A stretch of DNA of 64,000 bases, taken from Acidobacteriaceae bacterium. Lineage in GTDB: Bacteria; Acidobacteriota; Terriglobia; Terriglobales; Acidobacteriaceae. The DNA lies in NCBI GenBank assembly GCA_027452245.1, contig DAIDGW010000209.1, positions 1-64,000 of the forward strand, read 5' to 3'. Below the pieces are notes generated by a model. The model made no database searches. It saw nothing but the letters and a program-made list of their open reading frames with translations, and was not told the DNA's origin. Below are positions 11,458-35,456 of the stretch, one piece after another. Both the position numbers and the translations under genes were made by a program. How positions within the stretch are numbered: the first letter of the stretch is position 1; every line of letters starts with the position of its first letter.

Positions 11458-12293
11458 CCACCCGCGAACTGCTCATATCAGCTTGGGATTGGGAACCTTC
11501 GGTTCTGATTGGCTGTGCTGCCTTGCTGATTGTTTACTTCTCGTTAGTACGGTCCAGAACTCGGGCAAAGTCGACTACCTACGCAGCCGGAGTCATTGTT
11601 CTTCTGCTTGCGCTCGTTTCTCCTATCGACACCTTGAGCGACGACTATCTATTTAGCATGCATATGGTTCAGCACCTGCTGCTGATCCTGGTCGTAAGTC
11701 CGCTGCTGATTCTCGGAATCCCCCGAAATACGGCAGAGCAAATTGTGGGTCACGGTCGCATTGCGCAGATCGAACAATATTTATCCGATCCGGTAATCGC
11801 GTGGACAGGTATGGCGCTTGCCCTTGCCCTTTGGCACGTTCCGATCTTCTATAACTATGCGCTCAGAAACGAAGACGTACACATAGCGCAACACCTGATG
11901 TTTTTGGTTACGGCCGTCATTTTCTGGTGGCCCGTATTCCATCCTGTACCGGAATTGCGGCTGAAAACGCTTCCCATGGTGATCTATTTATTTCTTGCAA
12001 CAATGTTCAACAGCGTGCTCGGCATAATCATCACTTTTGCTCCTCTCGGTTGGTATCCCGCCTATATACATCCCAACGACGAATTCGGTGCGCTGTCTCT
12101 GATTCGCAAGCATTGGAATATCTCCGCCGCCGCTGACCTTCAACTTGGAGGCCTATTGATGTGGGTACCTGCAGGACTGATCTACTTCACGATCATCGTC
12201 ATCGCAATTATTCGCTGGCAGTCGCAGGGCGACTCCGATGCTATCGCGTACAATGCGAAACCCTACTTACTGGGAGACCACAATGCGACCTAA
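11454..12293 (+). CDS. ctaG: Cytochrome c oxidase assembly protein CtaG (caa3 type)
   Basis: I take the ATG at 11454 (279 residues), which overlaps the subunit III stop as ATGA; an upstream start at 11412 would run deep into coxC. Seven or so membrane helices are visible with conserved patterns of the caa3_CtaG family: FSMHMVQHLLLILVVSPLLI (about 65-85), LWHVPIFYNYAL and WWPVFHPVPEL. The family is required for CuB insertion or assembly of caa3 oxidase. It lies immediately after the three core subunits, as in Bacillus-type operons. Confidence 0.9.
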   Translation: MTTRELLISAWDWEPSVLIGCAALLIVYFSLVRSRTRAKSTTYAAGVIVLLLALVSPIDTLSDDYLFSMHMVQHLLLILVVSPLLILGIPRNTAEQIVGHGRIAQIEQYLSDPVIAWTGMALALALWHVPIFYNYALRNEDVHIAQHLMFLVTAVIFWWPVFHPVPELRLKTLPMVIYLFLATMFNSVLGIIITFAPLGWYPAYIHPNDEFGALSLIRKHWNISAAADLQLGGLLMWVPAGLIYFTIIVIAIIRWQSQGDSDAIAYNAKPYLLGDHNAT

Positions 12294-12708
12294 AGCCGGA
12301 ACCGGTGAATCGCAGCCCGCCAAAATGACCTTGGCATTCGGCGCAACGCTCGGAGCGGTGTGGGGAGCAATCCTTGGTGCGAGACTGACTTCCAACATGG
12401 CTGATGTGCGTGGAGGTGGAGAAGGAAAACGAGCCTTCCCGACAACTTCGAATGCTTCTGCGATTTCAAACCTTGGGCGTCCGTTTTCTCGGGAGCTGCA
12501 CTTTCCTTCGAAACCTGCTGCGGACTGGCAAGATCCGCAACCTTCGAGGCTTCCCAAGCCGACGTATGCACCTGCGGCGATGGCGTTCGGGCTGGCATTG
12601 TCTGCGGCGGGGGTCGTCACCCGCTTTTGGGTATCGCTGGCCGGCTTCATCTGCTTCCTGCTGGGAATTGCAAGCTGGATTGGAGATCTGCTGCATGAAC
12701 ACAAATGA
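12283..12708 (+). CDS. Small membrane protein of the oxidase operon, unknown function
   Basis: I choose the ATG at 12283 (141 residues), which overlaps the end of ctaG by 11 bases. One helix lies near 15-33 (MTLAFGATLGAVWGAILG). A proline-rich link (LPKPTYAP) leads into two helices at about 93-137, ending GIASWIGDLLHEHK. The C-terminal pattern resembles small extra subunits found in some bacterial caa3 oxidases, but I cannot assign a named family. Its position between ctaG and the Rieske gene, overlapping both, suggests a structural part of the oxidase or of a bc-oxidase supercomplex. Confidence 0.65.
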   Translation: MRPKAGTGESQPAKMTLAFGATLGAVWGAILGARLTSNMADVRGGGEGKRAFPTTSNASAISNLGRPFSRELHFPSKPAADWQDPQPSRLPKPTYAPAAMAFGLALSAAGVVTRFWVSLAGFICFLLGIASWIGDLLHEHK

Positions 12709-13210
12709 ACGTTCGGGAGAGAGCGACCCCGTATCACAAGTGCGGCGTGACATGCTGAATGCAGTATGTATTCTGCTGGGGCTCGGCGCGTCTGCCTTAG
12801 TTGCGGCTCCGGTCGTGGGATTTCTACTCGCGCCCTTCCTGCGACCAAAGCCGAGGTTGTGGCGTCCGGTGGGCCGCCTGCAGGATTTCCAAGTCGGGCA
12901 AACCGTACAGGTCAAATTCGCGCGATCCAACCCACTGCCATGGGACGGGTTTTTAGCGGAGACATCCGCTTGGCTGCGTCGCGAAACCGAGGGATATCTG
13001 ATCGCATTCTCGATCAACTGCACGCACCTGGGCTGTCCGGTTCGCTGGGAGAAGAACGCTGAGTTGTTTCTGTGCCCTTGTCATGGCGGAGTTTACGACG
13101 ACAGCGGAAATGTAGTGGCTGGTCCACCGCCTCGATCTCTGGTGCGTTATCCAGTTCGTGTGACCAATGGGAATGTGGAGATTCAGACGACCCCAATCCC
13201 TTTGGTGTAA
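12695..13210 (+). CDS. Rieske 2Fe-2S protein of a cytochrome bc complex
   Basis: The ATG at 12695 overlaps the preceding stop and gives 171 residues. One N-terminal membrane helix (about 22-48) is followed by the Rieske domain. The cluster motifs are CTHLGC (Cys109, His111) and CPCHGG (Cys127, His130), and the remaining cysteines can form the usual disulfide. A GPPPRSL loop after the second motif matches the Pro-rich loop of bc-type Rieske proteins. It should carry electrons from quinol at the cytochrome b Qo site to a cytochrome c. The cytochrome b gene follows after 35 bases. Confidence 0.93.
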   Translation: MNTNERSGESDPVSQVRRDMLNAVCILLGLGASALVAAPVVGFLLAPFLRPKPRLWRPVGRLQDFQVGQTVQVKFARSNPLPWDGFLAETSAWLRRETEGYLIAFSINCTHLGCPVRWEKNAELFLCPCHGGVYDDSGNVVAGPPPRSLVRYPVRVTNGNVEIQTTPIPLV

Positions 13211-13245
13211 GAAAACGACTGCGCCTTAGGAACTACTGCACGACG

Positions 13246-14679
13246 ATGCTTCGATTCTTAATCCATGCCTGGCATACGATTGATGATCGCCTCGGCGTCC
13301 GCAAATACTTCCTGCCTATCATTCAGCATCCGGTACCGCCGGACACAAACTGGTGGTATGTCTTTGGCAGCGCGACATTAGTGACGTTCATCATGCAGAT
13401 CGTCACCGGCACTGTACTGGCGACAATTTATGTCCCATCGACTGCACATGCCTATGACAGCATGCAATTTATTACTCGCGATGCTTTCCTGGGACATTTG
13501 GTGCGTGGACTGCACTACTGGGGCGCATCCGCGATGATTCTCTTCATTGGTATCCATTCTGTCCGTGTGTACCTGATGGGAGCCTTCAAGTATCCACGTG
13601 AGGCGAACTGGTTGACGGGAAGTGTCCTGATGGTCCTCACGTTGGGAATGGGTTTCAGCGGGCAATTGCTGCCATGGGACCAGAATGCCGTCTGGTCGGT
13701 TATCGTTGGAGCGGAACAAGCGGCCAAAGTACCTATTGTCGGTACGGCACTCGCCCGCTGGATCCTGGCTGGACAGATGCTCGGAGGCATGACCCTTTCT
13801 CGGTTTTACGCGGCACATGTCTTTTTCTTCCCGGGATTGATGTTTCTTGTGCTCGGACTGCACCTCTACCTGGTGATTTACAACGGAATTTCAGAACCTC
13901 CGAAGGCCGGACGGCCAGTTGATCTGAAACAATATCGCGCCTGGTACGAACACATGATCAAGACCGAAGGCGTTCCGTTCTGGCCGGATGCGGCATGGCG
14001 CGATATGGTGTTTGGCGTGCTGCTGGTTAGTACGATCTTCCTCCTAGCCTGGTATGTTGGCCCGCCCGCACTCAAGAAACCGCCGGATCCGACGATCATT
14101 GACGCCTCACCGCAGCCCTACTGGTATTTCCTGTGGTTCTTCTCTGTCCTGGCAATGTCGCCGCATGCAGGAGAAACTTTTCTGATCATTGCAACTCCCT
14201 CGGTGTTCTTTATCGTGATGTTCTTGCTTCCCTTCATCGCCCACAAAGGCGAGCGAAGCCCACGAAGACGGCCGTGGGCTGTAGCCCTCGTTATAATGTC
14301 GGTGATCATTATCGGCGTGTTCTGGTACGAAGCGAAGATTCATCCATGGGTGCCGGATTTTCACGCGCAAGTGCTCCCGCAGTCTGTGGTGAACAGCAAC
14401 GACCCGGCTGTGATTCACGGCGCTTCCCTCTTCCATGAACGTGGATGTGAATTTTGCCATCACGTTTCCGGCTACGGCGGCCATCGTGGACCAGACCTGA
14501 CCGACATTGGGAATCGACTCTCCTCTCAACAGATGATGACCTTCATCATGAATGGCGGGTACAACATGCCTCCATTTGCGAGTTTACTGAAGGCGAATGA
14601 TGCCAACGATCTGGTTGCGTTTTTGCAATCGCGAAAGGTGAGCGGCAACAGTCAGGCCCTCACTCGGACAAAGCAATGA
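13246..14679 (+). CDS. Cytochrome b of a bc complex with C-terminal cytochrome c domain
   Basis: From the ATG at 13246 the protein is 477 residues. Heme ligands are His90/His104 in the second helix and His191/His206 in the fourth; the 14 residues between the last two is the spacing of cytochrome b6 rather than mitochondrial b. The Qo motif, normally PEWY, reads PYWY at 291-294. A C-terminal cytochrome c domain has CEFCH (401-405) and a late Met in YNMPPFA. Fusion of b and c in one chain removes the need for a separate c1, and the nearby caa3 oxidase suggests direct electron hand-over. It overlaps the next gene by ATGA at 14676. Confidence 0.92.
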   Translation: MLRFLIHAWHTIDDRLGVRKYFLPIIQHPVPPDTNWWYVFGSATLVTFIMQIVTGTVLATIYVPSTAHAYDSMQFITRDAFLGHLVRGLHYWGASAMILFIGIHSVRVYLMGAFKYPREANWLTGSVLMVLTLGMGFSGQLLPWDQNAVWSVIVGAEQAAKVPIVGTALARWILAGQMLGGMTLSRFYAAHVFFFPGLMFLVLGLHLYLVIYNGISEPPKAGRPVDLKQYRAWYEHMIKTEGVPFWPDAAWRDMVFGVLLVSTIFLLAWYVGPPALKKPPDPTIIDASPQPYWYFLWFFSVLAMSPHAGETFLIIATPSVFFIVMFLLPFIAHKGERSPRRRPWAVALVIMSVIIIGVFWYEAKIHPWVPDFHAQVLPQSVVNSNDPAVIHGASLFHERGCEFCHHVSGYGGHRGPDLTDIGNRLSSQQMMTFIMNGGYNMPPFASLLKANDANDLVAFLQSRKVSGNSQALTRTKQ

Positions 14680-17946: not shown

Positions 17947-18456
17947 TCAACTTCTGATCCCTAGCTTCAGAAATTGCCGCCGTACGGGTTCTCCAGCCAC
18001 TTCTATAATCAGAACGCCAATGACGATTACCCAGGCGTCGCGCGCCGTTTGCATGGTGCCTAGGGAAACGAGAAGAGTGGTAGCTGCCGCTGCAGGCTGA
18101 CTCGCTTTCAGCAGTAGCGTCGCTGCGGTTGTAATAACTACTGCGACAACTGCAGCCCACAACCTGGGACTGGTGACAAAGCCTGCGCTGTCAACTTTTG
18201 GCGCATTCCAGGCCGCAAAGATCCACAACGAGAGAAATCCGGCACCGAGGCCAGAGAGATGTCCTGCAACAACGTTATAAGGCTTTGCTGTTGGCGCATT
18301 TGGCTCCTCAACCAACTCGTATGCAGTAGGACCCAGGCTGGCGAACAGCAATGGGACATGTGCTGCGAACCCAACCCCACCCGCCAAGAGAATCAGACTG
18401 CCTTCCCCGATCGTGCACAGAACCAGTTTTTTGGAGATCATATGCTTAAGACCCAT
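17947..18456 (-). CDS. HPP family-like membrane protein
   Basis: A 169-residue protein with four or five membrane helices. The segment FASLGPTAYELVEEPNAP is followed by VVAGHLSG and later ATTLLVSLGTM, which fits the HPP family (integral membrane proteins, some linked to nitrite transport in chloroplasts). The function is not established. It lies 35 bases after the HbpS-like gene on the same strand and so may be the last gene of the alcohol dehydrogenase/oxidase operon. It converges with the M16 gene 42 bases away. No terminator is obvious between them. Confidence 0.65.
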   Translation of the reverse strand: MGLKHMISKKLVLCTIGEGSLILLAGGVGFAAHVPLLFASLGPTAYELVEEPNAPTAKPYNVVAGHLSGLGAGFLSLWIFAAWNAPKVDSAGFVTSPRLWAAVVAVVITTAATLLLKASQPAAAATTLLVSLGTMQTARDAWVIVIGVLIIEVAGEPVRRQFLKLGIRS

Positions 18457-18491
18457 CAGTCTCGTTCCGATCTGCTATTGATGCGCGGTCG

Positions 18492-19283
18492 CTAACGTTT
18501 CGGTCCGGTTGGGAAGTTTTTTGACAGGTCTTTGATAATGTCGGTCCCGGGGTTGCCGCCTTTACACACGGGATGTCCGAAGCCGCTGGCGCTCACTCCA
18601 TTCGTAATGTCTTGAATCATGTTGTCATTGTGATCTGGAGACGGACCCATGGGAACCGCATCGAGTTGCAGTTCATGGCGTACTTTCCACGCGATTACAT
18701 GATCGGAGCACGATGTGCCGCCGCTGACTCCTAAAGCGCCGACGAGCTTCCCCTGCCGCGTATACAAAGCCAGACCACCGCCAAACACCACGATTCCGCC
18801 GACTGGCTTTCCAACAATCGGGTCATTGGTTTGGCCGAAGCTGGTGGGATCGCCGAAGGCCACTTCTGGATTCGGAGGAGCTGTGGTGATCAAACCGTAC
18901 AGACTTTGCCCAGGCTGCGATGGAAAATAAAGATTGGCGGTAGAGAGTGCATAGTCTGGCAGGCTCAAGGCATTAGCAGTAAATGCCTTCTCGGCGGCAA
19001 TCATCCGGCTTCCCAGCCACTGATCGCTCAGACTATTTCCGCTGTAGACCACCGTACACCCAATTCCATTGCGATCGACGATTACAGCCCATCTCTGGTT
19101 GCCCATTCCTCCGTTGGCCTGTTGCCCTTGCTTGACGACGGACTGAAGAACCTGTCGGAGCTTATTGGGATCGGGCAATGCATTGCAGTCAGATGGCCTT
19201 TGTGCCCATGCCAGATCGGAAAAGATCAGCAGGCCCACCACCGAAATAGACCAGAACAGCGAAAAGATTCGATTTGCATGCAT
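18492..19283 (-). CDS. Exported GlcG/HbpS family protein (heme-binding-like)
   Basis: The ATG at 19283 is preferred because GGAG lies 8 bases upstream; it gives 263 residues with a signal peptide ending at DLAWAQ. The family core is clear: PVGGIVVFGGGLALY, then GKLVGALGVSGG and SCSDHVIAWKVR. HbpS/GlcG proteins bind heme or corrinoids or sense redox, and members appear beside PQQ-dependent dehydrogenases in several bacteria. It follows oxidase subunit II by 54 bases in the second respiratory operon. It might bind heme or a small ligand for the periplasmic electron chain (inference). Confidence 0.8.
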   Translation of the reverse strand: MHANRIFSLFWSISVVGLLIFSDLAWAQRPSDCNALPDPNKLRQVLQSVVKQGQQANGGMGNQRWAVIVDRNGIGCTVVYSGNSLSDQWLGSRMIAAEKAFTANALSLPDYALSTANLYFPSQPGQSLYGLITTAPPNPEVAFGDPTSFGQTNDPIVGKPVGGIVVFGGGLALYTRQGKLVGALGVSGGTSCSDHVIAWKVRHELQLDAVPMGPSPDHNDNMIQDITNGVSASGFGHPVCKGGNPGTDIIKDLSKNFPTGPKR

Positions 19284-19337
19284 GAGGCGTTCTCCGTTCA
19301 CATTTCGCGGCAATATGCGAGCCGCTTTAAAGACTAT

Positions 19338-20360
19338 TCATTTCAACTGCTGCAAGAATGCAACGAGTGCGCGTAAGTCTGTGCCATTGAATACTGTGAG
19401 ATCGGGCATTTCCGCGCCAGGTTTGAGCGATTGTGCATGCGTAACCCAAGCTTCAAGGTTTGCCTGATTATTTGTGTAGTAGTTTCCTGCAATGCGTTGG
19501 CGACCGCCGATGTGAGTCAGATCCGGGGCCAAATGGCCCTGCGCTTGAGTTCCACGAATAGCATGGCAGAGGGAACATGCCGCGCCCATGAACACATCCC
19601 GTCCATGCAGCGCTTCTTGGGTCGTGGGTTCCGCGGCAGGATTCAGTTGCTGCGCGCGCCAGGCTTCATAGTCCGGCTCCGATTGCGCCACAACCAGCAG
19701 CGCCATGCGCGCATGTTCCTCGCCACAATATTCCGCGCATTGTCCGCGAAAAGTACCCGCATGATCAGCTTCGATGCGGATGAAGTTGGGCTGTCCGGGG
19801 ATCAGGTCCACCTTGCCGTGCAGGGTTGGCACCCAGAAGGAATGAATCACATCCCGTGTTTCGAGTTCGATGTTCACGGGACGTCCGACGGGAATGTGAA
19901 TTTCATTGGCGGTCACGAAGTGCTGATCAACTGGACCTTTCACGTAGTGAAGTTCCCACCACCATTGGTGGCCGATAACTTGAATATCTGGACCGACAGG
20001 CGACTTCCCAGCATCCACAGGAAAATTTGACATCCAATCAATACCCAGGCCAAATACCGTTGACAGAACGAGGAATGGAACGGCAAATCCCCCGATCAAG
20101 ATCCAGCGCTGGCCGCCTGTGCTATCCCAAGGTTCGTGCTGGTCTAAAGAGCCGCGCCGCCGTGTAGCCGTCCAGGCGAGAAGTATCCAAATCGCAAACG
20201 TAATCGCACAGAACAAAATCACTTCAATCCAGATCAGCGTCGACAGATAGTCGGCCGCTTGTCCGCCTGGATTAAGCATGGACTGTGGCAATCCGCAGCC
20301 ACTCAGAATGGAGAGCAGGAGGGCCAAAAGGAAATGCTGCAATTTGATGCCCGCCCTCAT
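19338..20360 (-). CDS. coxB: Cytochrome c oxidase subunit II, lipoprotein, with fused cytochrome c domain
   Basis: A 340-residue lipoprotein: the lipobox LSGC puts the mature N-terminus at Cys22. Two membrane helices are followed by the CuA domain with His in IHSFWVP and the ligand set CAEYCGEEHARM. The C-terminal cytochrome c domain has CSLCH and a Met in GAEMPDL. It is a caa3-type subunit II, separated from its subunits I and III by five genes. It starts with an ATGA overlap on the preceding cytochrome c gene. Placement after the alcohol dehydrogenase block is unusual, as subunit II normally comes first. Confidence 0.95.
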   Translation of the reverse strand: MRAGIKLQHFLLALLLSILSGCGLPQSMLNPGGQAADYLSTLIWIEVILFCAITFAIWILLAWTATRRRGSLDQHEPWDSTGGQRWILIGGFAVPFLVLSTVFGLGIDWMSNFPVDAGKSPVGPDIQVIGHQWWWELHYVKGPVDQHFVTANEIHIPVGRPVNIELETRDVIHSFWVPTLHGKVDLIPGQPNFIRIEADHAGTFRGQCAEYCGEEHARMALLVVAQSEPDYEAWRAQQLNPAAEPTTQEALHGRDVFMGAACSLCHAIRGTQAQGHLAPDLTHIGGRQRIAGNYYTNNQANLEAWVTHAQSLKPGAEMPDLTVFNGTDLRALVAFLQQLK

Positions 20361-20851
20361 TTCTTCTCTTTCACCTGTGGATCGGGTGCAACGTGGGGTG
20401 CGTCGGGTTCTTGCGGAGTCCCCAAGGTCTCAATGTAGGCCACGAGTTTCCATATCTGGTCTTGCGGAATCTTGGTGCCCCAGGACGGCATGCCCTTCCC
20501 ACGTCCTTCAGCAATGGAAGCGAAGACGTGAGCAGGATCTCCACCGTAAATCCAGACTGGACCGCGAAGGCTTGGTCCCATGCCGCCGCCGGCATGTCCG
20601 CCATGGCAGCCGTAGCAGTTGTACCAAACGAAGAGGCGGCGGCCTTCTTCCATCGCAACCGAATTCTCTTCGTAGGGGTTAGTCGGCATCTTGAACTCCA
20701 TTTGCGGGCCTGGGATAGGTCCCACGGGAATCTTCACCCCCGGCAATCCACCTTCCGCCGCCGCTTGTACCGGCTGCTGTGTACAGCCAGAGCAAAGCAA
20801 CAGAGCACAAGTAGCCAATAGCGCAATTTCCATGTGAATGCGGCGAATCAT
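20357..20851 (-). CDS. xoxG: XoxG/cytochrome cL-like lipoprotein cytochrome c
   Basis: A 164-residue monoheme cytochrome c with a lipobox (LCSGC, Cys23). Motifs match cytochromes that accept electrons from PQQ methanol dehydrogenases: CYGCHGG, GGGMGPSL, VWIYGG, FASIAEGRGKGMPSWG (the axial Met) and IWKLVAYIETL. It lies directly after the XoxJ gene with an ATGA overlap and before subunit II with another. It is the obvious carrier from XoxF to the CuA/c domain of subunit II. The symbol xoxG is by similarity of motif and position, not by search. Confidence 0.85.
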   Translation of the reverse strand: MIRRIHMEIALLATCALLLCSGCTQQPVQAAAEGGLPGVKIPVGPIPGPQMEFKMPTNPYEENSVAMEEGRRLFVWYNCYGCHGGHAGGGMGPSLRGPVWIYGGDPAHVFASIAEGRGKGMPSWGTKIPQDQIWKLVAYIETLGTPQEPDAPHVAPDPQVKEKK

Positions 20852-21669
20852 TGGCAGGACCTCGATTCCGAAGCTCGGTCGACAAGCGGAACTCCGTAGC
20901 TCCGTAACAAGCTTCTAATATCCTTTTGCCGGCGCCTAATCTCTTGGTTCAGTAGCCCGAGCAGAGAATCGTCTCCATGATGAACTCCCATGCCAATCGA
21001 GAATGTCACCGGAAAATTGCTATGCGCGCTTGGACAGATCGGAGTGACAGCCAGCGGCACGGGCGAGGTTTGTGCGAAGTAGCCGGCTTGTGGTCCCCAG
21101 GCTACGGCCACATCCACCTCTCCGTGTTCCACTGCCTGAACCAAATTGGCCGAGGGGTTCTCAGTCCCGAGATTGCCAAAGATGTTATAGCCAACCACAT
21201 TGCGAACGATTCCCCGGTTTGCCAATTCCTGTGCTGCCGGCGTAAATCCATCACTGACAACATGCAAACCGATCTTGACCGTTTTCAGCGAAGGATCGTC
21301 AAAGGAGTGAAAGGCGAGATGCCGGGCACGCTTGCTCACAAAAACATACGTGGAGGTGTAGTAAGGCTGGGTAGTATCGGCCAACTCGTAGCCTTTCGAA
21401 GGGACACCCATGATCATGTCGCAAGCGCCGTTGCGGAAAACTCTCGCCGCAAATCTCGGGCTTGTAGGCCACCACACATATTGCAACTTTCTGCCTAAAT
21501 CGCGAGCGACTATCTCCGCCAATTTGTTCTCAAAACCCTGTCCGTGAACATTGGAAAACGGCAGGTCATTGCCGTCCGCACAGACCCAGAGTTCTTTGGT
21601 TTGGCCGAATGCGGATGCACTAGCGAGAGCCACAATAATTACCACGACTGCTCTACAAGCCAAACACAT
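20848..21669 (-). CDS. xoxJ: XoxJ/MoxJ-type periplasmic substrate-binding protein
   Basis: A 273-residue exported protein with a signal peptide ending at SAFGQ. It has the fold of family 3 solute-binding proteins, starting KELWVCADGNDLPFSN and including FRNGACDMIMGVPSKGYE and VAVAWGPQAGYFA, the pattern seen in quinoprotein-dehydrogenase-associated binding proteins (MoxJ, XoxJ). These are thought to help mature or activate the dehydrogenase rather than import solutes. No ABC permease is nearby, which supports that. Its start overlaps the XoxF gene by 17 bases. Confidence 0.88.
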   Translation of the reverse strand: MCLACRAVVVIIVALASASAFGQTKELWVCADGNDLPFSNVHGQGFENKLAEIVARDLGRKLQYVWWPTSPRFAARVFRNGACDMIMGVPSKGYELADTTQPYYTSTYVFVSKRARHLAFHSFDDPSLKTVKIGLHVVSDGFTPAAQELANRGIVRNVVGYNIFGNLGTENPSANLVQAVEHGEVDVAVAWGPQAGYFAQTSPVPLAVTPICPSAHSNFPVTFSIGMGVHHGDDSLLGLLNQEIRRRQKDIRSLLRSYGVPLVDRASESRSCQ

Positions 21670-23485
21670 AGAGCGTGCCTCCCGGTGCAGTGAGTTGCTT
21701 GATTTTCTTCATCGCGCCCGTGATGCCGAGCGCCGCATAAGGATCGGCGAGAGAAATCGAAGGTTGGGCGGCCGCTCCCATCCAGCCTCCAACTCCCGAA
21801 TATACTGCGACATATTGCTGCCCATCCGGACCCTTGAACGTGATGGGATCGCCCACAATTCCCGAACCCAATTTCATTTGCCACAGGATGGCACCGGTGT
21901 GCGCATCCAATGCGCGGAACCAACCCTCCATCGTGCCATAGAAAACTACATCTCCGCCGGTAGCTAGGACTCCGCTGTAGACGGGCAGATCTGGGTCTTT
22001 CACACCCCAAACCTGTTTGGCGTTCGCGACATCCCACGCCACTAATTCACCTTGATATCCCCCTGGCCCCGGATACATGGTCGTGCTCGATCCAAGGTAT
22101 GGAGTGCCTGCAATGTAGTTTGCGTCGATGCCTTCGTGGTCCATGCAGGTGTTGTGTGCCGGGATGTAAAGCAGCCCGGTTCGAGGGGACAACGCAGATG
22201 GAACGAACTCTTTTCCTCCAGTTGAAGACGGGCAAACCTCGCGGGCAATAACTCCGGTATGAGTGACCTTCGCCGGATCAACCTCCGGCATGCCAGTTTT
22301 CAAGTCATAAGCTTTTGCCCAGTTGACCGGTTGAAATTTTTCCGCAGATAGCAGCTCTCCAGTTTCGCGATCCAGAACAAAGACGAAACCGCTTCGACCG
22401 GGATGGATGAGCAACTTTCGCATTTTTCCATGCCAGTCCATATCGACGGCTATGTTCTCCATGATTTCGTCGTAATCCCAGGCATCGTGCGGCACAACCT
22501 GGAAAGCCCACTTCGCTTCTCCAGTCTCCGGTTTGCGGGCGAAAATTGTTATGCCCCATTTGTTGTCGCCAGGACGCATGTCGGGATTCCATACGCCTGG
22601 ATTTCCTGTTCCGTAGAAAATTAGATCGGTTTCCGGGTCATAGGAAATCCAACCCCACACTGTCCCTCCTCCCAACTTCCAGCCGTCCGGAGGCCATGTC
22701 GTGACTCCCAGGTCTTTCCCTTGGTCCTTGGGATAAAAAGGCTTGAAATCAGGACCAATCAGAACGTCTTTATCTGGTCCCGTACTATACGCACGCCATA
22801 TCTCCTTGCCAGTCTTCAGGTCGAGCCCTACCACTTTGCCGCGTACTCCGAGTTCGCCACCGGCATCGCCGGTAATGACGATGTTCCTGACAATCAGAGG
22901 TGCACCCGTCGTGGTCTCACCAATGTGAATGTCGCCCACAAGCGTCCGCCAGACTTCCTTCCCTGTATTGGCATCGACCGCAACGATGTGGTTGTCGAGG
23001 GTGGCGTAAACGATTTTGCCGTCGGCATAACTCGCTCCTCGGTTCACAACGTCACAGCAAGCCACGCCTTGCGATCGGGGATCGGGGTGCGGCTCGTACT
23101 TCCACTTCATCGGAAAACCAGGTTTACTCAAGTCCAGCGCGATCAGGTTATTGGGAAACGGCGTAATAACGTACATCGTCCCATTTACTACGAGCGGCTG
23201 GCCCTCGTGACCGCGGGCGATCCCAGTTGACATGGATCCGACCATCTTCAGATTCTTTACGTTCTGGGTATTGATCTGATTTAGCGGGCTGTAACGGGTG
23301 TTAGCGTAATCGCCCGCTGGCAAGGTCCATTGCCCATCAGGCTCCGGGCTGACGAGATGAATACTCGGAAGCTGGCCGGGCACATTCGTATTTCCGCCAC
23401 CGTTAATCTTCTGCGCACGGCCATAGCTCGCCAAAACCAGCGTGCAGATCAGAGTGAGAACAACACCCTCTATCCGTTCCGTCAT
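21653..23485 (-). CDS. xoxF: XoxF-type lanthanide-dependent PQQ alcohol dehydrogenase
   Basis: A 610-residue periplasmic quinoprotein with a signal peptide ending near YGRAQ and eight propeller blades. Vicinal cysteines Cys143-Cys144 (GVACCDVVNRG) form the disulfide that faces PQQ. Metal ligands are Glu211 (GGELGVRG), Asn295 (GTGNPGVWN) and catalytic Asp337. Asp339, two residues later (HDAWDYDE), is the extra acidic ligand that marks lanthanide-using enzymes; calcium enzymes have Ala or Ser there. The substrate may be methanol, ethanol or another alcohol. An AGGAGGAAGA ribosome site precedes the ATG. No small MxaI subunit and no pqq genes are in the window. Confidence 0.9.
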   Translation of the reverse strand: MTERIEGVVLTLICTLVLASYGRAQKINGGGNTNVPGQLPSIHLVSPEPDGQWTLPAGDYANTRYSPLNQINTQNVKNLKMVGSMSTGIARGHEGQPLVVNGTMYVITPFPNNLIALDLSKPGFPMKWKYEPHPDPRSQGVACCDVVNRGASYADGKIVYATLDNHIVAVDANTGKEVWRTLVGDIHIGETTTGAPLIVRNIVITGDAGGELGVRGKVVGLDLKTGKEIWRAYSTGPDKDVLIGPDFKPFYPKDQGKDLGVTTWPPDGWKLGGGTVWGWISYDPETDLIFYGTGNPGVWNPDMRPGDNKWGITIFARKPETGEAKWAFQVVPHDAWDYDEIMENIAVDMDWHGKMRKLLIHPGRSGFVFVLDRETGELLSAEKFQPVNWAKAYDLKTGMPEVDPAKVTHTGVIAREVCPSSTGGKEFVPSALSPRTGLLYIPAHNTCMDHEGIDANYIAGTPYLGSSTTMYPGPGGYQGELVAWDVANAKQVWGVKDPDLPVYSGVLATGGDVVFYGTMEGWFRALDAHTGAILWQMKLGSGIVGDPITFKGPDGQQYVAVYSGVGGWMGAAAQPSISLADPYAALGITGAMKKIKQLTAPGGTLYVFGL

Positions 23486-23502
23486 TCTTCCTCCTGTAAG
23501 GT

Positions 23503-23895
23503 CTAGCGCAGGGTGTAAAGGTATGCCGCAATGTCTTTGGCTTGTTCGTGGTCCACGCCTAGCTTGGGCATCGCCGTGCCAGATTCAATTGACTGTGGAT
23601 CTCGTAACCATTGTTCGAGGTTGTCAGGAGTGTTGGGGACCTCGCCGGCAATGAACGTTCTCCGGCCAAACATCATCAGGGGCGGTCCCACAAGTCCATT
23701 CGCGCGAGGGATTCCAGGAATCGTATGGCACGAGCCGCAATCGTACTGACTGATCAACCGCGCGCCATGCACGGCATCTCCTCCGGTCTGAATGCTATAT
23801 CCGCGAGGTGTAGCTCCCCCCACGCAGCCCGAAGTCCCGAATAGCCCTCCAGCAAGCAATAACGTCATCAGTCCGCGATTGCGACGAACTTTCAT
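23503..23895 (-). CDS. Lipoprotein cytochrome c, class I
   Basis: The ATG at 23895 overlaps the preceding stop as ATGA and has GAGG five bases upstream; a GTG two codons earlier is possible. The product is 130 residues with a lipobox (GTSGC), one heme site CGSCH, and a likely axial Met in GTAMPKLGV. The NLEQWLRDPQSIE segment resembles the cytochrome c domains fused to caa3 subunit II. It may be an additional carrier between XoxF and the oxidase. It precedes the XoxF gene by 17 bases, the widest gap in the core of this operon. Confidence 0.88.
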   Translation of the reverse strand: MKVRRNRGLMTLLLAGGLFGTSGCVGGATPRGYSIQTGGDAVHGARLISQYDCGSCHTIPGIPRANGLVGPPLMMFGRRTFIAGEVPNTPDNLEQWLRDPQSIESGTAMPKLGVDHEQAKDIAAYLYTLR

Positions 23896-24305
23896 CGCCA
23901 CCTCATGCAGATGTTGAGCACGTAAATGGGAACCGCAAACCAGATCATTCCAGCCCCCATGATTACGGTCGCTATGACCCCGGCGACCGCCATGTATTGC
24001 TTGCGTCCCGTCCCCTCGCCATGAAAGACATCTGTCTTATCGGTTAACCTTTGCCAGTTCTTGTAAGAAACCAAGCCGGCAATTACTCCCACAATTAACA
24101 GTCCGAAGGTGATGAATCCGAGCAGCATCTCGATGCCGGTACGAGTGAAGACACTCGACCCAGCCTCGCCTCCCATACATGCCTGCCATGCAAATAGAAC
24201 GTTGAGTAAACCTGCCAACACCCAGGCTGGAATCGCAGCAAAGCCGAACCAGAGACGTGTTTCTGAGACTTGCTTACTTATCGATGTATGTGTTTCTGCG
24301 GTCAT
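23892..24305 (-). CDS. Small three-helix membrane subunit of the second oxidase, unknown family
   Basis: A 137-residue protein with helices at about 18-45, 58-82 and 105-132. There are no heme or copper motifs. It overlaps subunit III upstream by ATGA and the cytochrome c gene downstream by ATGA. Genes at this position in oxidase operons often code for subunit IV-like proteins, but I see no diagnostic motif, so the assignment rests on location only. Confidence 0.65.
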   Translation of the reverse strand: MTAETHTSISKQVSETRLWFGFAAIPAWVLAGLLNVLFAWQACMGGEAGSSVFTRTGIEMLLGFITFGLLIVGVIAGLVSYKNWQRLTDKTDVFHGEGTGRKQYMAVAGVIATVIMGAGMIWFAVPIYVLNICMRWR

Positions 24306-24934
24306 AATGCGTTATAGACGTTCGGGCCTATGTAAAGGATGGCGACCGTTGCCGCCCACACAACGGCCAGAAAATACCAATAGAGCAGCACGTTGTAGTA
24401 AGGCCGATGGGGCGGACGTTCTACAGGCTCCCACTTAGATCGAGGCAAGAATAAAACCCAGAAGCACATCAAGATACCTAGAATCAAATGGCCGGCATGC
24501 ACGGTCGTGATCGTGTAGAAGATCGAACCGTACGCGTCGGTGCGTGGACCTACATGCAGTTGATGCTCCAGATCATCCAAGTAACCGAGGGTGAGATACC
24601 CGAGTCCCAAAATGATCGTCGCGATCAGCATGGTCCTCGCAGTAAATGCCTTGCGCTGAACAGCCTGCTTCTGTCCCCACCACATCAACAGGCATGCCAG
24701 TGCGAGTACTCCCAACTGCGGCAAAGCGTAATGCAGCTTGGGAGGTTCTTCCACCCGCCACCGCTCATTTCCCTTCTCCACGTAGTAGTAGCTGAAGAAC
24801 ATGAACACGAAGAGCATGGCTTCTGTGAGGATGAACAGAAGCATCCCGTATGTACCTCGCGTATCGTCGATGCGCTGCACGGGAGGCGGCGCGTGTTCGA
24901 TATGGGTAGATTCGTCTGTAAATACGGGTGTCAT
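24302..24934 (-). CDS. coxC: Cytochrome c oxidase subunit III
   Basis: A 210-residue five-helix subunit III. It has MLLFILTEAMLFVFMFFSYYY near residues 30-50 (the shared TEAMLF/FSYYY pattern), VHAGHLILGILM and YYNVLLYWYFLAVVW near the end. It starts with an ATGA overlap on subunit I. It should bind and stabilise the unusual subunit I encoded just upstream. Confidence 0.93.
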   Translation of the reverse strand: MTPVFTDESTHIEHAPPPVQRIDDTRGTYGMLLFILTEAMLFVFMFFSYYYVEKGNERWRVEEPPKLHYALPQLGVLALACLLMWWGQKQAVQRKAFTARTMLIATIILGLGYLTLGYLDDLEHQLHVGPRTDAYGSIFYTITTVHAGHLILGILMCFWVLFLPRSKWEPVERPPHRPYYNVLLYWYFLAVVWAATVAILYIGPNVYNAL

Positions 24935-26808
24935 CCGATTTGCCCTTCACTCGTTGGCCACAGCCAAATGCCAGTAATCAGTAGAGAGAAAATTCCAGCT
25001 CCCAGTACCACCCAAAGAAGCTGGTAAACGAGAGCACCGAGTAGCACAAACATTCCCAATGCGAGCAGCAATGGGAGGATTGTGTCCTCGGGAATACTCG
25101 CGAGTGCCACGTAGTCGGCGTCGAGCCAAGTGGTGGTGAACGTCAAACGCGCCTGATCGAGGATACGTTGGTTATTCGGGTCTTTCTCCTCGTCATGTTC
25201 ATCCCACAGCGGATGCCGCGAAGCAATTGTAGGAAGATGAATGCTGCCGTAAGGCTTCGGCGGAGACTCAATCGACCACTCCATGCTATCGGCAAACCAG
25301 GGATTGTTTCCGGCAACCTGACCGTGCTTCACACTCCAGAAGAAATTGATGATGCTGAGCAGAATGCCCAGGGCCAGAGTGAATGCCCCGATCGTGATCA
25401 TCATATTGACCCAGTCCCAGCCTAGATTGGGAGCATAGGTGTAAATGCGACGGGGCATGCCTTCAATGCCAAGTACATGCATGGGGAAAAAGGTGAAGTT
25501 GAATCCCACGAACATAACCCAAAAACTCACCTTCCCGAGGGCTTCATGCATCATTCGGCCCGTCATCTTCGGCAGCCAGTAATAAAACGCCGCGAATACC
25601 GGGAACATATTGATTCCCACCAGCACGTAATGCAGGTGCGACACCACAAAGTACGTGTCCGTTACCTGCCAATCGACCGGAATCACCGCGGTGAAAATTC
25701 CGTTCAGTCCTCCGATGATCAGCAGTGCCACCGAACCGACCGCAAAATGCATCGAGGATGTCAAAACAGGCTTGCCTCTCCACATAGTGGCGATCCAGGC
25801 AAACACTTGCACCGCAGTAAAAATCGAGATGGTCATGCTGGCCGCGCTGAAAAAGCTCATCGTCATATGGCTCATCCCGACGGCAAACATGTGATGGACC
25901 CATACCCCAAATCCCACAAGCCCGGTCAGAACGGTAGAGATCGCGACATACGGGTAACCTACTATCGGCCGACGCGCGAAAGTAGGGATGATCATCGACA
26001 ACATGCCGGTCGCCGGCAAGAAGACGATGTACACCCAAGGATGTCCGAACATCCAGAACAGGTGCTGCCACAAAAGAGGATTCCCGCCGTGCGCGGTATC
26101 AAAGAAATGTGTGTGCCAACGCCGATCCAGTTCAACAAAAACATTTGCTGCCGTGAGCGGAGGAAGTCCGAAAATAGTAACCCATGACGTGGTCAACGTA
26201 CTGTAGAGAAAAAGGGGCATGCGGTTGACCGACATACCGGGAGCGCGTAAGCGCATAATCGTTACTATGAAATTAATAGCTCCACCGGTAGTAGAAATCG
26301 TGAGCAGAATGAGCGCTAAGTTGAAGAAGTCAGTCCCATGCGCGGGAGAGTAGGGCCGCAGCGTATAAGGCACGTAGGCAAACCATCCCGCATGTGGTGC
26401 CTGCCCAAGGCAAGGCCCAACGTAGAGCAATAACCCGGATAGAAGATAAGTCCAGTATGTGAAAGCATTGAGGCGCGGGAACGCCATATCGCGCGCACCA
26501 ATCATGAGCGGAACCAGAAATACCGCAAATCCCGAGAGAATTGGGGAAGCGTACCACCAGATCATGGTTGTCCCATGCATGGTAAAAATCTGGTCGTACA
26601 TTTCGGGGCCAAGCAACGCCTGGTTGGGCTTAGCCAACTGCAGACGCATCATCAAGGCCTCCACTCCACCGATGATCAGGAAGGTAATCGCGGTCGCGAT
26701 ATAGCGCTTGCCTAGCGTCTTGTGGTCAACCGTCGCAAGCGCCCCCCAGAGAGTCTTTGGAGACTCCCATAACTGAGTGAGTCGCTGTTCAACTTGTTCC
26801 TTGCTCAA
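24931..26808 (-). CDS. coxA: Heme-copper oxidase subunit I with altered proton-pathway residues
   Basis: A 625-residue subunit: the 12-helix core plus a C-terminal extension with two more helices (about 580-618). Metal ligands are complete: His78, His256, His305-His306, His391 and His393, and cross-link Tyr260 is kept. However, HPEVY is HPWVY (Trp258 replaces the D-pathway Glu), with no YS alternative of A2-type enzymes, and PTGVK is FTAVQ (Gln334 replaces the K-pathway Lys). The entry Asp in GARDMAFPRLN remains. It is the first gene of the minus-strand operon that includes xoxF. O2 reduction is expected from Tyr260, but pumping may differ. Confidence 0.93.
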   Translation of the reverse strand: MSKEQVEQRLTQLWESPKTLWGALATVDHKTLGKRYIATAITFLIIGGVEALMMRLQLAKPNQALLGPEMYDQIFTMHGTTMIWWYASPILSGFAVFLVPLMIGARDMAFPRLNAFTYWTYLLSGLLLYVGPCLGQAPHAGWFAYVPYTLRPYSPAHGTDFFNLALILLTISTTGGAINFIVTIMRLRAPGMSVNRMPLFLYSTLTTSWVTIFGLPPLTAANVFVELDRRWHTHFFDTAHGGNPLLWQHLFWMFGHPWVYIVFLPATGMLSMIIPTFARRPIVGYPYVAISTVLTGLVGFGVWVHHMFAVGMSHMTMSFFSAASMTISIFTAVQVFAWIATMWRGKPVLTSSMHFAVGSVALLIIGGLNGIFTAVIPVDWQVTDTYFVVSHLHYVLVGINMFPVFAAFYYWLPKMTGRMMHEALGKVSFWVMFVGFNFTFFPMHVLGIEGMPRRIYTYAPNLGWDWVNMMITIGAFTLALGILLSIINFFWSVKHGQVAGNNPWFADSMEWSIESPPKPYGSIHLPTIASRHPLWDEHDEEKDPNNQRILDQARLTFTTTWLDADYVALASIPEDTILPLLLALGMFVLLGALVYQLLWVVLGAGIFSLLITGIWLWPTSEGQIG

Positions 26809-27176
26809 GCTGGTCTTCCTATCTGTAGCTCTGCTGCGGTTGAGTAGCGAAGCCTCGCTGGTGAACTAGATGTGTTCCAAAAGACGGACAGTAGATGTTG
26901 CCCTTGGGCAGCGAGTTGTTCTATTTGCAAAACCAGATTGTTGCGCGTGCAACGGGGTTAACTGAGCAATTACTTACTTGCTAAATAACAGTGTTTTACT
27001 GTAGGTAAACGTTATAAATCGCCTGTAAAGCTTTCAGAGTTCTCGTCGTGGTATGCTCCACAACAGGAGCTCCGCGTCAATGCTTCGGTTCCTCATTTTT
27101 GAAAACCTTATCGCGCCGTACATAAGAATTGTCCCAGGCAACAGCTTGTCCCCTGTTTCAGGAGAACTTGAATCTT
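26809..27176. promoter_or_regulatory. Divergent control region between the second oxidase operon and a MarR gene
   Basis: About 370 bases with no credible gene. It must contain the promoter of the oxidase/alcohol dehydrogenase operon and of the MarR regulator. Palindromes are visible: GTTGC-GCGT-GCAAC at 26940-26953 and TTTAC-TGTAG-GTAAA at 26995-27009. The second overlaps ACAGT-GTTTT-ACTGT. Any could be an operator for the adjacent MarR protein. I did not assign -35/-10 elements. Confidence 0.5.
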
Positions 27177-27716
27177 ATGCTTCGCCCTCAAGATAACGAC
27201 CTCGACATGATTTGTGCTTGCGCCGCCTTACGCAAAGCTGCCCGCGCTGCGACTCAACTGTATGACTTGGTTCTTCAGCCAGCTGGACTGAAAGCTACTC
27301 AATTCTTTGCTCTGAAGAGCATTGCCGATGCGGGGGAGATCGCACAATGGAGATTTGCACGCAACAATTCTGTCGCGGTCGAAACGCTATCGCGGCGTTT
27401 TGCAGCTCTACGAAAGCGGGACCTAATCACCTGCCGAACGGGGGGAAATCATGGGGAACGGATTTACAGTCTAACCGACAAAGGGAAACAAGCTCTTAAT
27501 CAGGCCCTCCCATATTGGGAGCGTGCCCAGAAACGCTTGCGCCACACCTTAGGCGACTCCGATCTCAGCACCCTGCTCCGCATTTGCGACAACACAGTCG
27601 AAGCAGCGCATAAGGCAGAACTGCTGCGTGCAGCAAATTCCGCCCCTTTTCACTCCGCATGTCGCAGCAATTCTTCTCACGTGCAGGCTAACGGACACGA
27701 TCCTATTGTGCCTTGA
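27177..27716 (+). CDS. MarR family transcriptional regulator
   Basis: From the ATG at 27177 the protein is 179 residues. TTG starts at 27129 and 27168 are alternatives, and a GGAG at 27161-27164 fits either of the later starts. The winged helix region runs about 45-110, with SVAVETLSRRFAALRKRDLI as recognition part and GERIYSLTDKGKQAL as the wing and following helix, typical of MarR. The N-terminus has a Cys pair (MICACAALRKA) that could sense redox or metal. It is divergent from the second oxidase operon, which makes that operon the likely target (inference). Confidence 0.82.
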   Translation: MLRPQDNDLDMICACAALRKAARAATQLYDLVLQPAGLKATQFFALKSIADAGEIAQWRFARNNSVAVETLSRRFAALRKRDLITCRTGGNHGERIYSLTDKGKQALNQALPYWERAQKRLRHTLGDSDLSTLLRICDNTVEAAHKAELLRAANSAPFHSACRSNSSHVQANGHDPIVP

Positions 27717-27888: not shown

Positions 27889-28629
27889 ATGAACATTCTG
27901 AGGGTTCACCGCCACTGGAAGCAGTTTCGTCTGCACTGCGAGCGACAAAAGCAGTGCGTCCTGCGAGTTTCACTTTTCTGCACGTTGTTGCTCATCATTC
28001 TTGGCGCCTGTGGTTCTCTTGAGCTAGCACGCGCACAGCAAACCCAGGCAAGACCGGTCGTTGTGCAACCGGGCGCACCAGGCCAACCAAGCAAAATCCT
28101 TCCATCGTCCACTCAGGGAGTGCTGCCGCCGCAATCTGCAGCCGATACGGCATTCATGCAGGGTATGATCGTCCACCACGCCCAGGCGGTGGAGATGACC
28201 GCGATGATTCCCTCGCATACGAATAACAAGGACCTGCATACACTGGGTGCACGTATCAGCCGCTCTCAGTCTGACGAAATCGATTTTATGAAGTGCTGGC
28301 TGGCAGCGCGCGGTGAAGCGGTTCCGAAACCGATGATGGGAATGCCTATGTCGCACGACAGCATGACGATGATGCCTGGAATGCTTACGCCCGAGCAGAT
28401 GGATGCCCTTCGCAAGGCAAAAGGAGCGGAATTTGATCACCTGTTTTTGGTTGGGATGATTCAGCACCACAACGGTGCGCTCACGATGGTGAGAGATCTC
28501 TTCAATACCTCCGGCGCTGGACAAGATGCCGAGCTTTTCAATTTTGCGACTGATGCGGACAATACGCAACGAGCCGAGATCCGAATTATGCAGAATATGT
28601 TGAAAAAAGAAAGACCCGAGGAGAAATAA
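27889..28629 (+). CDS. DUF305 domain-containing exported protein
   Basis: A 246-residue protein with an N-terminal membrane or signal segment (about 25-45; a GACGS lipobox-like site is possible). The DUF305 signature occurs twice: FMQGMIVHHAQAVEMT at about 87-102 and FLVGMIQHHNGALTMV at about 185-200, joined by a His/Met-rich linker (MPMSHDSMTMMPGM). DUF305 is a ferritin-like helical fold often next to copper-handling genes; the Met/His-rich linker fits copper binding, but this is an inference. The stop TAA shares a base with the ATG of the LVIVD gene, so they form an operon. Confidence 0.87.
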   Translation: MNILRVHRHWKQFRLHCERQKQCVLRVSLFCTLLLIILGACGSLELARAQQTQARPVVVQPGAPGQPSKILPSSTQGVLPPQSAADTAFMQGMIVHHAQAVEMTAMIPSHTNNKDLHTLGARISRSQSDEIDFMKCWLAARGEAVPKPMMGMPMSHDSMTMMPGMLTPEQMDALRKAKGAEFDHLFLVGMIQHHNGALTMVRDLFNTSGAGQDAELFNFATDADNTQRAEIRIMQNMLKKERPEEK

Positions 28630-30698
28630 TGAGCCGAACTTCCCATCCTTATTTATTTACACTGGCGGTTGCTCTGATCGTTTGTTTCGGCATATACCGG
28701 GCACAGTCACAATCGACGCAGCCCGCAAATCCTTCACAGTCCCAGACGGAAGGGCAGAAAGCCGCTACTCCTTCCGCAGCACAAAAAAATAAGGGTGATG
28801 ATGAAGAGGATCTTTTCGCCCCCGAGCCAGCGCCTGCGCTACCTCCGGGCATGACCGGATCAGACCCGAACGATCCGCGCGCGAAACTCTCAGCCGGCCT
28901 TTACAACGCCGGTGAAATCTCGATGGGAATGAAACACCTGCTGTGGCTCAAGAAACCTGATGCCTTCCAACTTGGTACTTCGAATCCTGACGACCCCAAG
29001 GTGCAGAAGATTATGGGCCAACTCGGAATGGGAAACAATCCTAAGATCCCTAAAGCAGCTCACTTGGTCATCGCGCAATTGGCCTTCGCCAATTCGGATC
29101 TCGCGTTCCAGGGCAATCATCTCTTTCAGGGAAATTTTTACGGCATAAGTATGTATGACATTTCTGACCCGGCGAAAGCCCACTTGCTTACTTCCCTGGT
29201 ATGCCCTGGAGGGCAGGGCGACGTTTCCGTCTACAAGAATCTCCTCTTTATGTCTGTCGAGATGCCTAATGGTCGCCTCGATTGCGGTGTTCAGGGATTC
29301 CCACCGGAACCGCCTCAACCTGAAAGCAAAGACAGCCAGCAACCGAAGAAGCGTCATATACCGGTGGCCCAAAAAGACCGCTTCCGTGGTGTAAGGATCT
29401 TTGATATTTCCGACATTCAAAATCCGAAACAGGTGGCTGCCATACAGACCTGCCGCGGATCCCACACTCATACGTTAGTTGTCGACCCAAACGACAAGGA
29501 CAATGTTTACATCTACGTCTCGGAAACCTCTTTTGTGCGCCAGTCGGAAGAGCTGGCAGGGTGCTCTGACGAGAAACCGGACGAGAACCCGAACACTTCT
29601 CTGTTTCGAATTGATGTGATCCAAGTACCGCTGGCTGCTCCTCAGGATGCAAAGATCGTTTCCAGTCCTCGGGTATTTATGGATGCGCGGACAGGTGCGA
29701 TCAATGGCCTCAACAATGGCGGCACCCATGGCAAGAACGGCCTCAAGAAGCCAGTGGATACGAACCAGTGCCACGACATCACTGTCTACTCGGCCCTCGG
29801 GTTGGCTGCCGGCGCATGTTCCGGAAACGGAATCCTTTTGGACATCAAAGATCCCGTGCATCCCAAGAGGGTCGATGCCGTCAATGATCCAAACTATTCC
29901 TATTGGCATTCCGCAACATTCTCCAATGACGGCACAAAAGTCGTATTTACAGATGAGTGGGGCGGTGGACTGGGAGCGCGCTGCCGCGCCAACGATCCGA
30001 ACAAGTGGGGTGCCGATGCGATATTCCATTTGAAGGACGACAAGCTGACTTTTTCGAACTATTACAAGCTTCCGGCCGCTCAGAGCGACACGGAGAATTG
30101 CGTAGCTCACAATGGCTCTCTGATTCCAGTGCCTGGTCGCGACATTGAGGTTCAGGCTTGGTATCAAGGCGGCGTGTCCGTCATGGACTTCACTGATCCT
30201 TCGCACCCCTATGAAATCGCCTACTTCGATCGCGGGCCCATCGATGCAAAAATGCTGGTGCTTGGCGGTTTCTGGTCCGCGTACTGGTACAACGGTTACA
30301 TCTATGGCTCAGAGATCGCCCGCGGCCTGGACGTATTTGAACTGACGCCGACTAAATTCTTGACCCAGAATGAAATCGATGCCGCAAAATCCGTCCAGTT
30401 GGCTGATCTCAATGTGCAAGACCAACCGAAGATCGAGTGGCCCGCCAACCTGGTAGTGGCGAAAGCTTATGTGGACCAACTTTCGCGGTCGCAAGCGCTT
30501 TCGGCCCGCCAAATTTCACAATTGCGAAAGGCGATCCAAAGTGCGGAAACATCGCACATGAATAAGAAGAAAGTCGCGAAATTGCAGAAGATGGCACCTC
30601 GCCTGGACAAAGACGCGGCAACTGCGAAGAACCCGTCCGATTCCATGCGCATGCATGAGCTTGCGGATGTTTTGAAGCGCTTGTCTGCAGCCGCCTGA
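28629..30698 (+). CDS. LVIVD-repeat exported protein
   Basis: A 689-residue protein with an N-terminal signal anchor and a Gln/Pro/Ala-rich stretch, then a beta-propeller of LVIVD-type repeats: FYGISMYDISDPAKAHLL, GVRIFDISDIQNPKQVA, GGVSVMDFTDPSHPYEIA and similar. Several cysteines (LVCPGGQG, QTCRGSHTH, VDTNQCHD) lie on the propeller. The C-terminal 120 residues are Lys/Ala-rich helices. LVIVD proteins are common in Acidobacteriota and Actinobacteria; their function is unknown, though they often pair with DUF305 genes as here. The extracellular location is supported by the signal. Confidence 0.85.
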   Translation: MSRTSHPYLFTLAVALIVCFGIYRAQSQSTQPANPSQSQTEGQKAATPSAAQKNKGDDEEDLFAPEPAPALPPGMTGSDPNDPRAKLSAGLYNAGEISMGMKHLLWLKKPDAFQLGTSNPDDPKVQKIMGQLGMGNNPKIPKAAHLVIAQLAFANSDLAFQGNHLFQGNFYGISMYDISDPAKAHLLTSLVCPGGQGDVSVYKNLLFMSVEMPNGRLDCGVQGFPPEPPQPESKDSQQPKKRHIPVAQKDRFRGVRIFDISDIQNPKQVAAIQTCRGSHTHTLVVDPNDKDNVYIYVSETSFVRQSEELAGCSDEKPDENPNTSLFRIDVIQVPLAAPQDAKIVSSPRVFMDARTGAINGLNNGGTHGKNGLKKPVDTNQCHDITVYSALGLAAGACSGNGILLDIKDPVHPKRVDAVNDPNYSYWHSATFSNDGTKVVFTDEWGGGLGARCRANDPNKWGADAIFHLKDDKLTFSNYYKLPAAQSDTENCVAHNGSLIPVPGRDIEVQAWYQGGVSVMDFTDPSHPYEIAYFDRGPIDAKMLVLGGFWSAYWYNGYIYGSEIARGLDVFELTPTKFLTQNEIDAAKSVQLADLNVQDQPKIEWPANLVVAKAYVDQLSRSQALSARQISQLRKAIQSAETSHMNKKKVAKLQKMAPRLDKDAATAKNPSDSMRMHELADVLKRLSAAA

Positions 30699-33964: not shown

Positions 33965-34013
33965 AGCCGCTCCTTCCATTTTCGAAAATAGAGCAGAAAC
34001 GTCTGGCCGGATA

Positions 34014-34025
34014 TGACTTATGTCA
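34014..34025. promoter_or_regulatory. Crp/Fnr-type palindrome before the 4Fe-4S gene
   Basis: TGAC-TTAT-GTCA is a perfect dyad with a four-base centre, 50 bases upstream of the start at 33964. The identical 12-mer, within a matching 15-base core (ATGACTTATGTCACG), lies before the RIC gene at 36253-36264. The half-site spacing fits a Crp/Fnr dimer, and such a regulator is encoded at 36307-37011. Confidence 0.7.
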
Positions 34026-34211
34026 CGCTGTTTCCCAGCCAACTGAATCTTTTAACTCCGGCAATATGAATGAGATTCAGACACTTTCGCTTCTAACCCC
34101 GGCGATCCCGGTCTATCGGTCGGAAGCGGGTGGCCGGCTGGCAAATGTGGCGAAAAGATTAACGGCGAAGACAGTAACTGCCGTCATCTCAATCACTGCC
34201 GAGACCGGCAG

Positions 34212-35447: not shown

Positions 35448-35456
35448 ATTCTGGCC

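Follow-up and report, generated by a model that had tools for sequence, protein, structure and literature searches.

A putative XoxF alcohol dehydrogenase operon of a soil acidobacterium encodes its own caa3-type oxidase with altered proton-channel residues

Results

The window, that is, the whole 64,000-nucleotide stretch of Acidobacteriaceae contig DAIDGW010000209.1 that was analyzed, comes from a soil bacterium that carries a putative operon for an alcohol dehydrogenase and a terminal oxidase. The ORF listing and searches against Pfam/NCBIfam bore out the gene order coxI-coxIII-small membrane protein-cytochrome c-xoxF-xoxJ-xoxG-coxII on the minus strand that an earlier sequence-only reading had proposed (Table 1). 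Five ATGA junctions (24931, 24302, 23892, 20848, and 20357), also proposed there, were all present in the sequence, as was the 17-base overlap of XoxF and XoxJ; at its ATGA junction, the lipoprotein-type cytochrome c may alternatively start from an upstream GTG. There was no overlap in the sequence at the CoxII/HbpS and HbpS/HPP junctions. The HbpS-like protein, previously counted as a member of the coupled unit, is still a plausible one, as homologues recur in xoxF-cox loci (62–64% in loci L033 and L035) and also occur beside many Mesorhizobium xoxF genes, although it does not share the overlapping junctions. The HPP-like protein, previously named as a possible member, was not conserved with the module (one match in all related loci) and was ruled out on the absence of a homologue in related loci. 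Homologues of the MarR-like regulator were also found upstream of coxI in two other loci (L036 and L043).

Table 1. Genes of the xoxF-cox cluster and its flanks in the window.
Feature	Coordinates	Strand	Evidence and remarks
MarR-like regulator, divergent, upstream of coxI	27129-27716	+	MarR-type models below their cut-offs
CoxI, 625 aa	26808-24931	-	ORF listing, Pfam/NCBIfam; start codon uncertain
CoxIII	24934-24302	-	Pfam/NCBIfam; 4-base ATGA overlap with CoxI
137-aa three-helix membrane protein	24305-23892	-	no Pfam/NCBIfam family
Lipoprotein-type mono-heme cytochrome c	23901-23503	-	module-conserved
XoxF, PQQ alcohol dehydrogenase	23485-21653	-	TIGR03075, 620 bits
XoxJ, periplasmic binding protein	21669-20848	-	TIGR03871, 256 bits, above cut-off
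XoxG-like cytochrome c	20851-20357	-	Pfam/NCBIfam
CoxII, caa3 type, with CuA motif and a cytochrome c domain at the C terminus	20360-19338	-	
HbpS-like secreted protein	19313-18492	-	recurrent in xoxF-cox loci
HPP transmembrane protein	18456-17947	-	probably outside module; no homologue in related loci

The dehydrogenase scored above the cut-off of 480 bits for the PQQ methanol/ethanol dehydrogenase family, and its closest solved structure was 4mae (667 bits), the XoxF-type enzyme of Methylacidiphilum fumariolicum SolV, with which it shares the metal-binding Asp pair and the vicinal cysteines. The metal ligands Glu, Asn, and Asp and the extra lanthanide Asp were all present (WDYDEIME, GET, and TGNPG); the DxD motif indicates that the metal is most likely a lanthanide. 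The clade of the window XoxF has DYDEIME, whereas the solved XoxF has DYDGVNE. The gene content of the cluster agreed with that of published xoxF3 clusters, which makes the dehydrogenase a candidate XoxF3. PqqC was encoded in the genome. The substrate may be methanol, but a search of the genome for Fae gave no match, so that growth on methanol is only a possibility.

The terminal enzyme was identified as an A-family caa3 oxidase by subunits I, II, and III, the CuA ligands, the cytochrome c domain on subunit II, the heme/CuB ligands, and the cross-link Tyr. The CoxI score of 667.8 bits was just under the TIGR02891 cut-off of 670.75, and CoxB scored 149 bits against a cut-off of 147.7. The predicted CoxI structure (pLDDT 79) had Thermus caa3 (2yev) as its top Foldseek match and contained two extra C-terminal transmembrane helices (578–595 and 598–616) representing a COX4-like fusion, so that this COX1, with its length, two-helix extension, and adjacent xoxF, corresponds to COX operon type a-II. 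By the residue-based typing of A-family oxidases (PMC3084760), the enzyme was neither A1 nor A2, as FGHPWVY places Trp at position 278 in the absence of E278 and helix VI has no YS motif. The 137-aa protein was also predicted as three helices, with a pLDDT of 68, too weak for a fold match.

A few kilobases beyond the cluster, a second, ordinary caa3 oxidase is encoded with CtaG, Rieske, and cytochrome b proteins on the other strand (8275–14679), a block absent from the sequence-only reading. The genome holds two further full-length COX1, one in this block and one of A2 type, and in a draw of 297 Acidobacteriota genomes, every genome with a xox-type oxidase also had another COX1.

We examined the proton-channel residues of subunit I by alignment to solved oxidases, with positions in Paracoccus numbering unless window positions are stated. 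In the window CoxI, Q334 (codon 25807–25809; motif AVQVFAW) stands in place of the K-channel Lys K354, and W258 (codon 26035–26037) stands in place of the terminal Glu of the D channel, E278, giving GHPWVYI versus GHPEVYI, with the heme/CuB ligands and Tyr260 intact. The window oxidase thus lacks a standard K channel, K354 being replaced by Gln and E78 of subunit II (E78-II) being absent, with T351 and S291 kept. It has the A-family fold, CuA, the heme/CuB ligands, and Tyr in common with Thermus caa3 and with Paracoccus/Rhodobacter aa3 (1ar1 and 1m56), and its cytochrome domain is as in Thermus caa3, but it differs from all three at K354, E278, and E78-II and is about 36% identical to them.

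Related COX1 were then grouped as W-type, E-type, and K-containing controls, the groups being defined by the residues themselves. In the W-type (n = 22 among the matches listed), position 354 was Gln in 14, Ala in 6, and Thr in 2, position 278 was Trp in every sequence, D124 was kept (two had Glu), and N131 and N199 were kept. Trp at 278 as a quirk or an error of a single sequence was ruled out by its presence in 22/22 members of the clade from four phyla, among the matches listed. In the E-type (n = 57 among the matches listed), K354 was Gln in 57/57 and E278 was kept, the D-channel entry residue D124 was mostly Asn (45) or else Ser, Ala, Gln, or Thr, with Asp in 3, N199 was mostly lost, and an invariant new Glu occurred at window position 170. 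Five orphan K-less COX1 had Gln at 354, D124 and E278 kept, Ser at 131, and Glu at 199. The controls, taken from Acidobacteriota as well as from the genomes to which the named loci belong, had D124, N131, N199, and K354 in 80/80, and the heme/CuB ligands and Tyr were invariant in all four groups. When COX1 were instead grouped by xoxF neighborhood, Lys at 354 was found in no xox-linked COX1 among the matches listed. In an untargeted scan of all columns, 14 positions, N113, D124, N199, and K354 among them, were conserved in each of the two control types but lost from the xox clade. A peculiarity of Acidobacteriota was ruled out as the source of the K loss, because Pseudomonadota showed the same loss with ordinary K-containing oxidases in those genomes.

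The other end of the K channel was altered in subunit II. The entry Glu (Paracoccus E78-II), missing from the window CoxII, was present in 36/36 CoxII partnered with K-containing COX1 (a pattern caught 34, and the other two were read by eye). Of the 85 partners of K-less COX1 among the matches listed, at most one had it, and perhaps none; of three pattern matches in these partners, two were clearly elsewhere and one (L102) was ambiguous. The CuA ligands remained in CoxII without the entry Glu.

In the COX1 phylogeny, the K-less sequences formed one clade (support 100/99), which divided into the W-type (100/98) and the E-type (93/91). Therefore, the K-channel Lys was most simply lost once, after which the D channel changed along two separate lines, and independent losses in the two gene orders were not supported. 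K-less COX1 also occurred away from xoxF, namely the five orphans and a few of E-type; the channel change is thus a feature of the oxidase clade and not strictly of the xox link. One orphan (L225) lies near a GMC-type dehydrogenase, and this single case hints that the K-less clade may serve periplasmic dehydrogenases generally.

To describe the distribution, genome contigs were scanned with queries consisting of XoxF close to that of the window, which does not amount to a census, and at least 80 related loci were obtained from several phyla. The widespread architecture was xoxF-xoxJ-xoxG-coxII-coxI-coxIII-x-ctaG-cytC. That of the window, coxI-coxIII-x-cytC-xoxF-(xoxJ)-xoxG-coxII, recurred in Acidobacteriota, Azohydromonas, Methylophaga, Gemmatimonadota, and a Myxococcales MAG; hence the placement of coxII after the dehydrogenase genes, pointed out earlier, is real and is a conserved alternative order seen in several groups, not a one-off. 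Gene order was ruled out as a marker of oxidase type by five Gemmatimonadota loci in which W-type COX1 goes with the other order. The absence of ctaG from the window cluster looks like a loss, because one locus from Gemmatimonadota (L041) shares the window's order and still has ctaG, fused to cytC.

Among the matches listed, xoxF was flanked on each side by 7 kb or more of sequence in 55 loci, and in 52/55 of these a K-less COX1 was within 8 kb of it. Chance neighborhood was thereby ruled out, and the cross-phylum comparison suggested by the sequence-only reading found the two gene sets together and not rarely so. The distances of XoxF and COX1 were correlated over 57 loci among the matches listed (Mantel r 0.85; 0/2000 permutations as high, with a permuted maximum of 0.22), and the split into W- and E-type oxidases mapped as a single change to one branch of the XoxF tree (support 100/100). 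The window XoxF type was found in 12/297 Acidobacteriota genomes by XoxF search; XoxF was accompanied by a close K-less COX1 in eight genomes and stood alone in four, and one genome had the oxidase only (Fisher p ~3e-12, counting closely related K-less COX1). A distant K-less COX1 (G067, L144) was in a genome without any PQQ dehydrogenase match. Taken together, the inheritance of XoxF and the oxidase as one unit across phyla is well supported, and so is the dedicated alcohol-to-oxygen module proposed earlier, by the recurring architectures, adjacency, and co-inheritance.

Discussion

The pairing of xoxF with cox genes is already published, and the earlier statement that xox clusters normally rely on housekeeping oxidases is wrong for the xoxF3 type (PMC10875860; PMC4013037). 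In 12/12 xoxF3-bearing Acidobacteria studied there, xoxF3 was reported to have CoxI, CoxII, CoxIII, CtaG, CytC, XoxG, and XoxJ as neighbors, and the cox/ctaG genes of these operons were credited to an earlier review (PMC10875860). The xoxF3-cox clusters of Acidobacteria/Gemmatimonadetes (Voutsinos 2024, PMC10875860) share XoxF, XoxG, XoxJ, the three Cox subunits, a cytochrome c, and a hypothetical protein of ~110–130 aa beside CoxIII with the window, whereas the window differs in its order and in having no ctaG in the cluster. The 137-aa protein is an apparent counterpart, judged by eye, of this hypothetical protein, and a resemblance to vesicle transport has been published for the small membrane protein of such operons. 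Protons are unmentioned in the main text of that paper. Type a-II, in the available part of Degli Esposti 2014 (PMC4013037), comprises COX1 of 630–670 aa with a COX4-like C-terminal extension and often includes a PQQ methanol dehydrogenase(-like) gene in the operon, much as in the window; it is described there for alphaproteobacteria, and that part does not treat the channel residues. K-channel loss in other A-family oxidases has also been reported, in the available part of PMC8239418 as cases mapped on the archaeal tree, whereas the present loss defines one bacterial clade tied to XoxF. We found no earlier report of the K/D-channel changes of xox-linked oxidases in the open-licence literature, and one elsewhere is possible. 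What appears new against that literature is these channel changes, which the sequence-only reading overlooked: judged from the aligned residues, both ends of the K channel are lost and part of the D channel is lost in two alternative ways.

The gene set is in principle sufficient for electron flow from alcohol to O2. XoxF, with PQQ and most likely a lanthanide, would oxidize alcohol in the periplasm, and XoxG, the lipoprotein cytochrome c, or both would deliver the electrons to the module's own caa3 oxidase by way of its cytochrome c domain and CuA; this oxidase would reduce O2. Because the standard channel residues are missing, this oxidase may take up protons unlike normal aa3 oxidases and may pump weakly or not at all. 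Its main service would be to drain the electrons released by alcohol oxidation in the periplasm, with energy-conserving respiration left to the cell's separate standard oxidases. Alcohol electrons may then be burned with little or no energy capture. We consider it rather probable that the locus encodes such a self-contained alcohol-to-O2 chain, ending in a channel-altered and probably weakly or non-pumping O2 reductase. A stronger form, in which a cross-phylum A-family clade would reduce O2 without either standard cytoplasmic channel, taking protons by another route, possibly from the periplasm, as a non-pumping, uncoupled electron sink tied to alcohol oxidation in the periplasm, is put forward tentatively as one possibility.

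Protons might still be conducted by Gln, by water molecules, or by other residues, which speaks against weak pumping. It is conceivable, if somewhat unlikely, that the module is dedicated but its oxidase pumps normally, with Gln at window position 334, ordered water, and substituted residues such as E170 in the E-type rebuilding the channels; the W-type keeps D124, N131, and N199, the E-type has its invariant new Glu, and B- and C-family oxidases function with other K-channel residues (PMC3084760). Normal pumping is, however, difficult to reconcile with the joint loss of K354 and E78-II and with D-channel changes that strike the most critical residues in each of the two sister clades. Moreover, mutants of Paracoccus/Rhodobacter aa3 at K354 and E278 are largely inactive, which also argues against it.

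Same-superfamily NO reductases without cytoplasmic proton channels are known (PMC3084760), and a terminal enzyme of another kind than an O2 reductase, such as an NO reductase-like one, would account for the absent channels; we regard this as very unlikely, because the enzyme retains the CuB histidines, CuA, the A-family fold, and the cross-link Tyr, a residue that NO reductases lack (PMC3084760). It is hardly credible that an ordinary oxidase lies beside xoxF by happenstance with no functional link: K-less relatives do occur without xoxF nearby, but the 52/55 adjacency among the matches listed, the co-inheritance, the two conserved architectures, and the separate standard oxidase set in the genome all weigh against it.

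The preferred reading, a dedicated chain whose oxidase would pump weakly or not at all, is open to testing, since the modules are present in named sequenced strains, including Azohydromonas australica DSM 1124 with the window type (L038) and Mesorhizobium species with the sister type. If the xox-linked oxidases turn over, they would amount to naturally occurring versions of the classic blocked mutants, from which one could learn which channel parts are needed for O2 reduction and which for proton pumping. If true, the proposed mechanism would also change how much energy soil bacteria are reckoned to gain from lanthanide-dependent alcohol oxidation.

Results and Discussion

At the position equivalent to residue 170 of the window protein, Glu was invariant in the oxidase subunit I (COX1) of the E-type sister clade, in which E278 (Paracoccus numbering) is kept and D124 mostly lost, whereas both types of K354-containing controls had Gly. 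The Glu is a candidate substitute proton carrier.

A subgroup of orphan COX1 proteins, which lack the K-channel Lys and are encoded without xoxF (loci L225, L226, L227, L228, and L144), stood at 45-49% against the E-type. A GMC-type FAD dehydrogenase gene was close to the orphan in L225, and an NrfD-family gene in L226. At L143, a xoxG-like cytochrome gene adjoins a K-less oxidase; a close XoxF was absent from its genome (G167) despite approximately 40 PQQ-domain matches there.

Other genes in the window are listed below.

Window features and their positions
Feature	Position	Observation
Standard caa3 oxidase with CtaG, Rieske, and cytochrome b/c protein	8275-14679	Convergent to the xox module; K354, E278, and D124 all kept
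XoxF	21653-23485	
689-aa secreted protein	28629-30698	Weak choice-of-anchor B similarity; shares one base with a DUF305 gene
NapH/NosR-like ferredoxin, NnrS, ScdA/hemerythrin, Crp-family regulator	32816-37011	Likely nitric-oxide response genes

Around the metal-binding Asp pair, the XoxF clade of the window carries DYDEIME in place of DYDGxNE, possibly representing a change at the substrate site.
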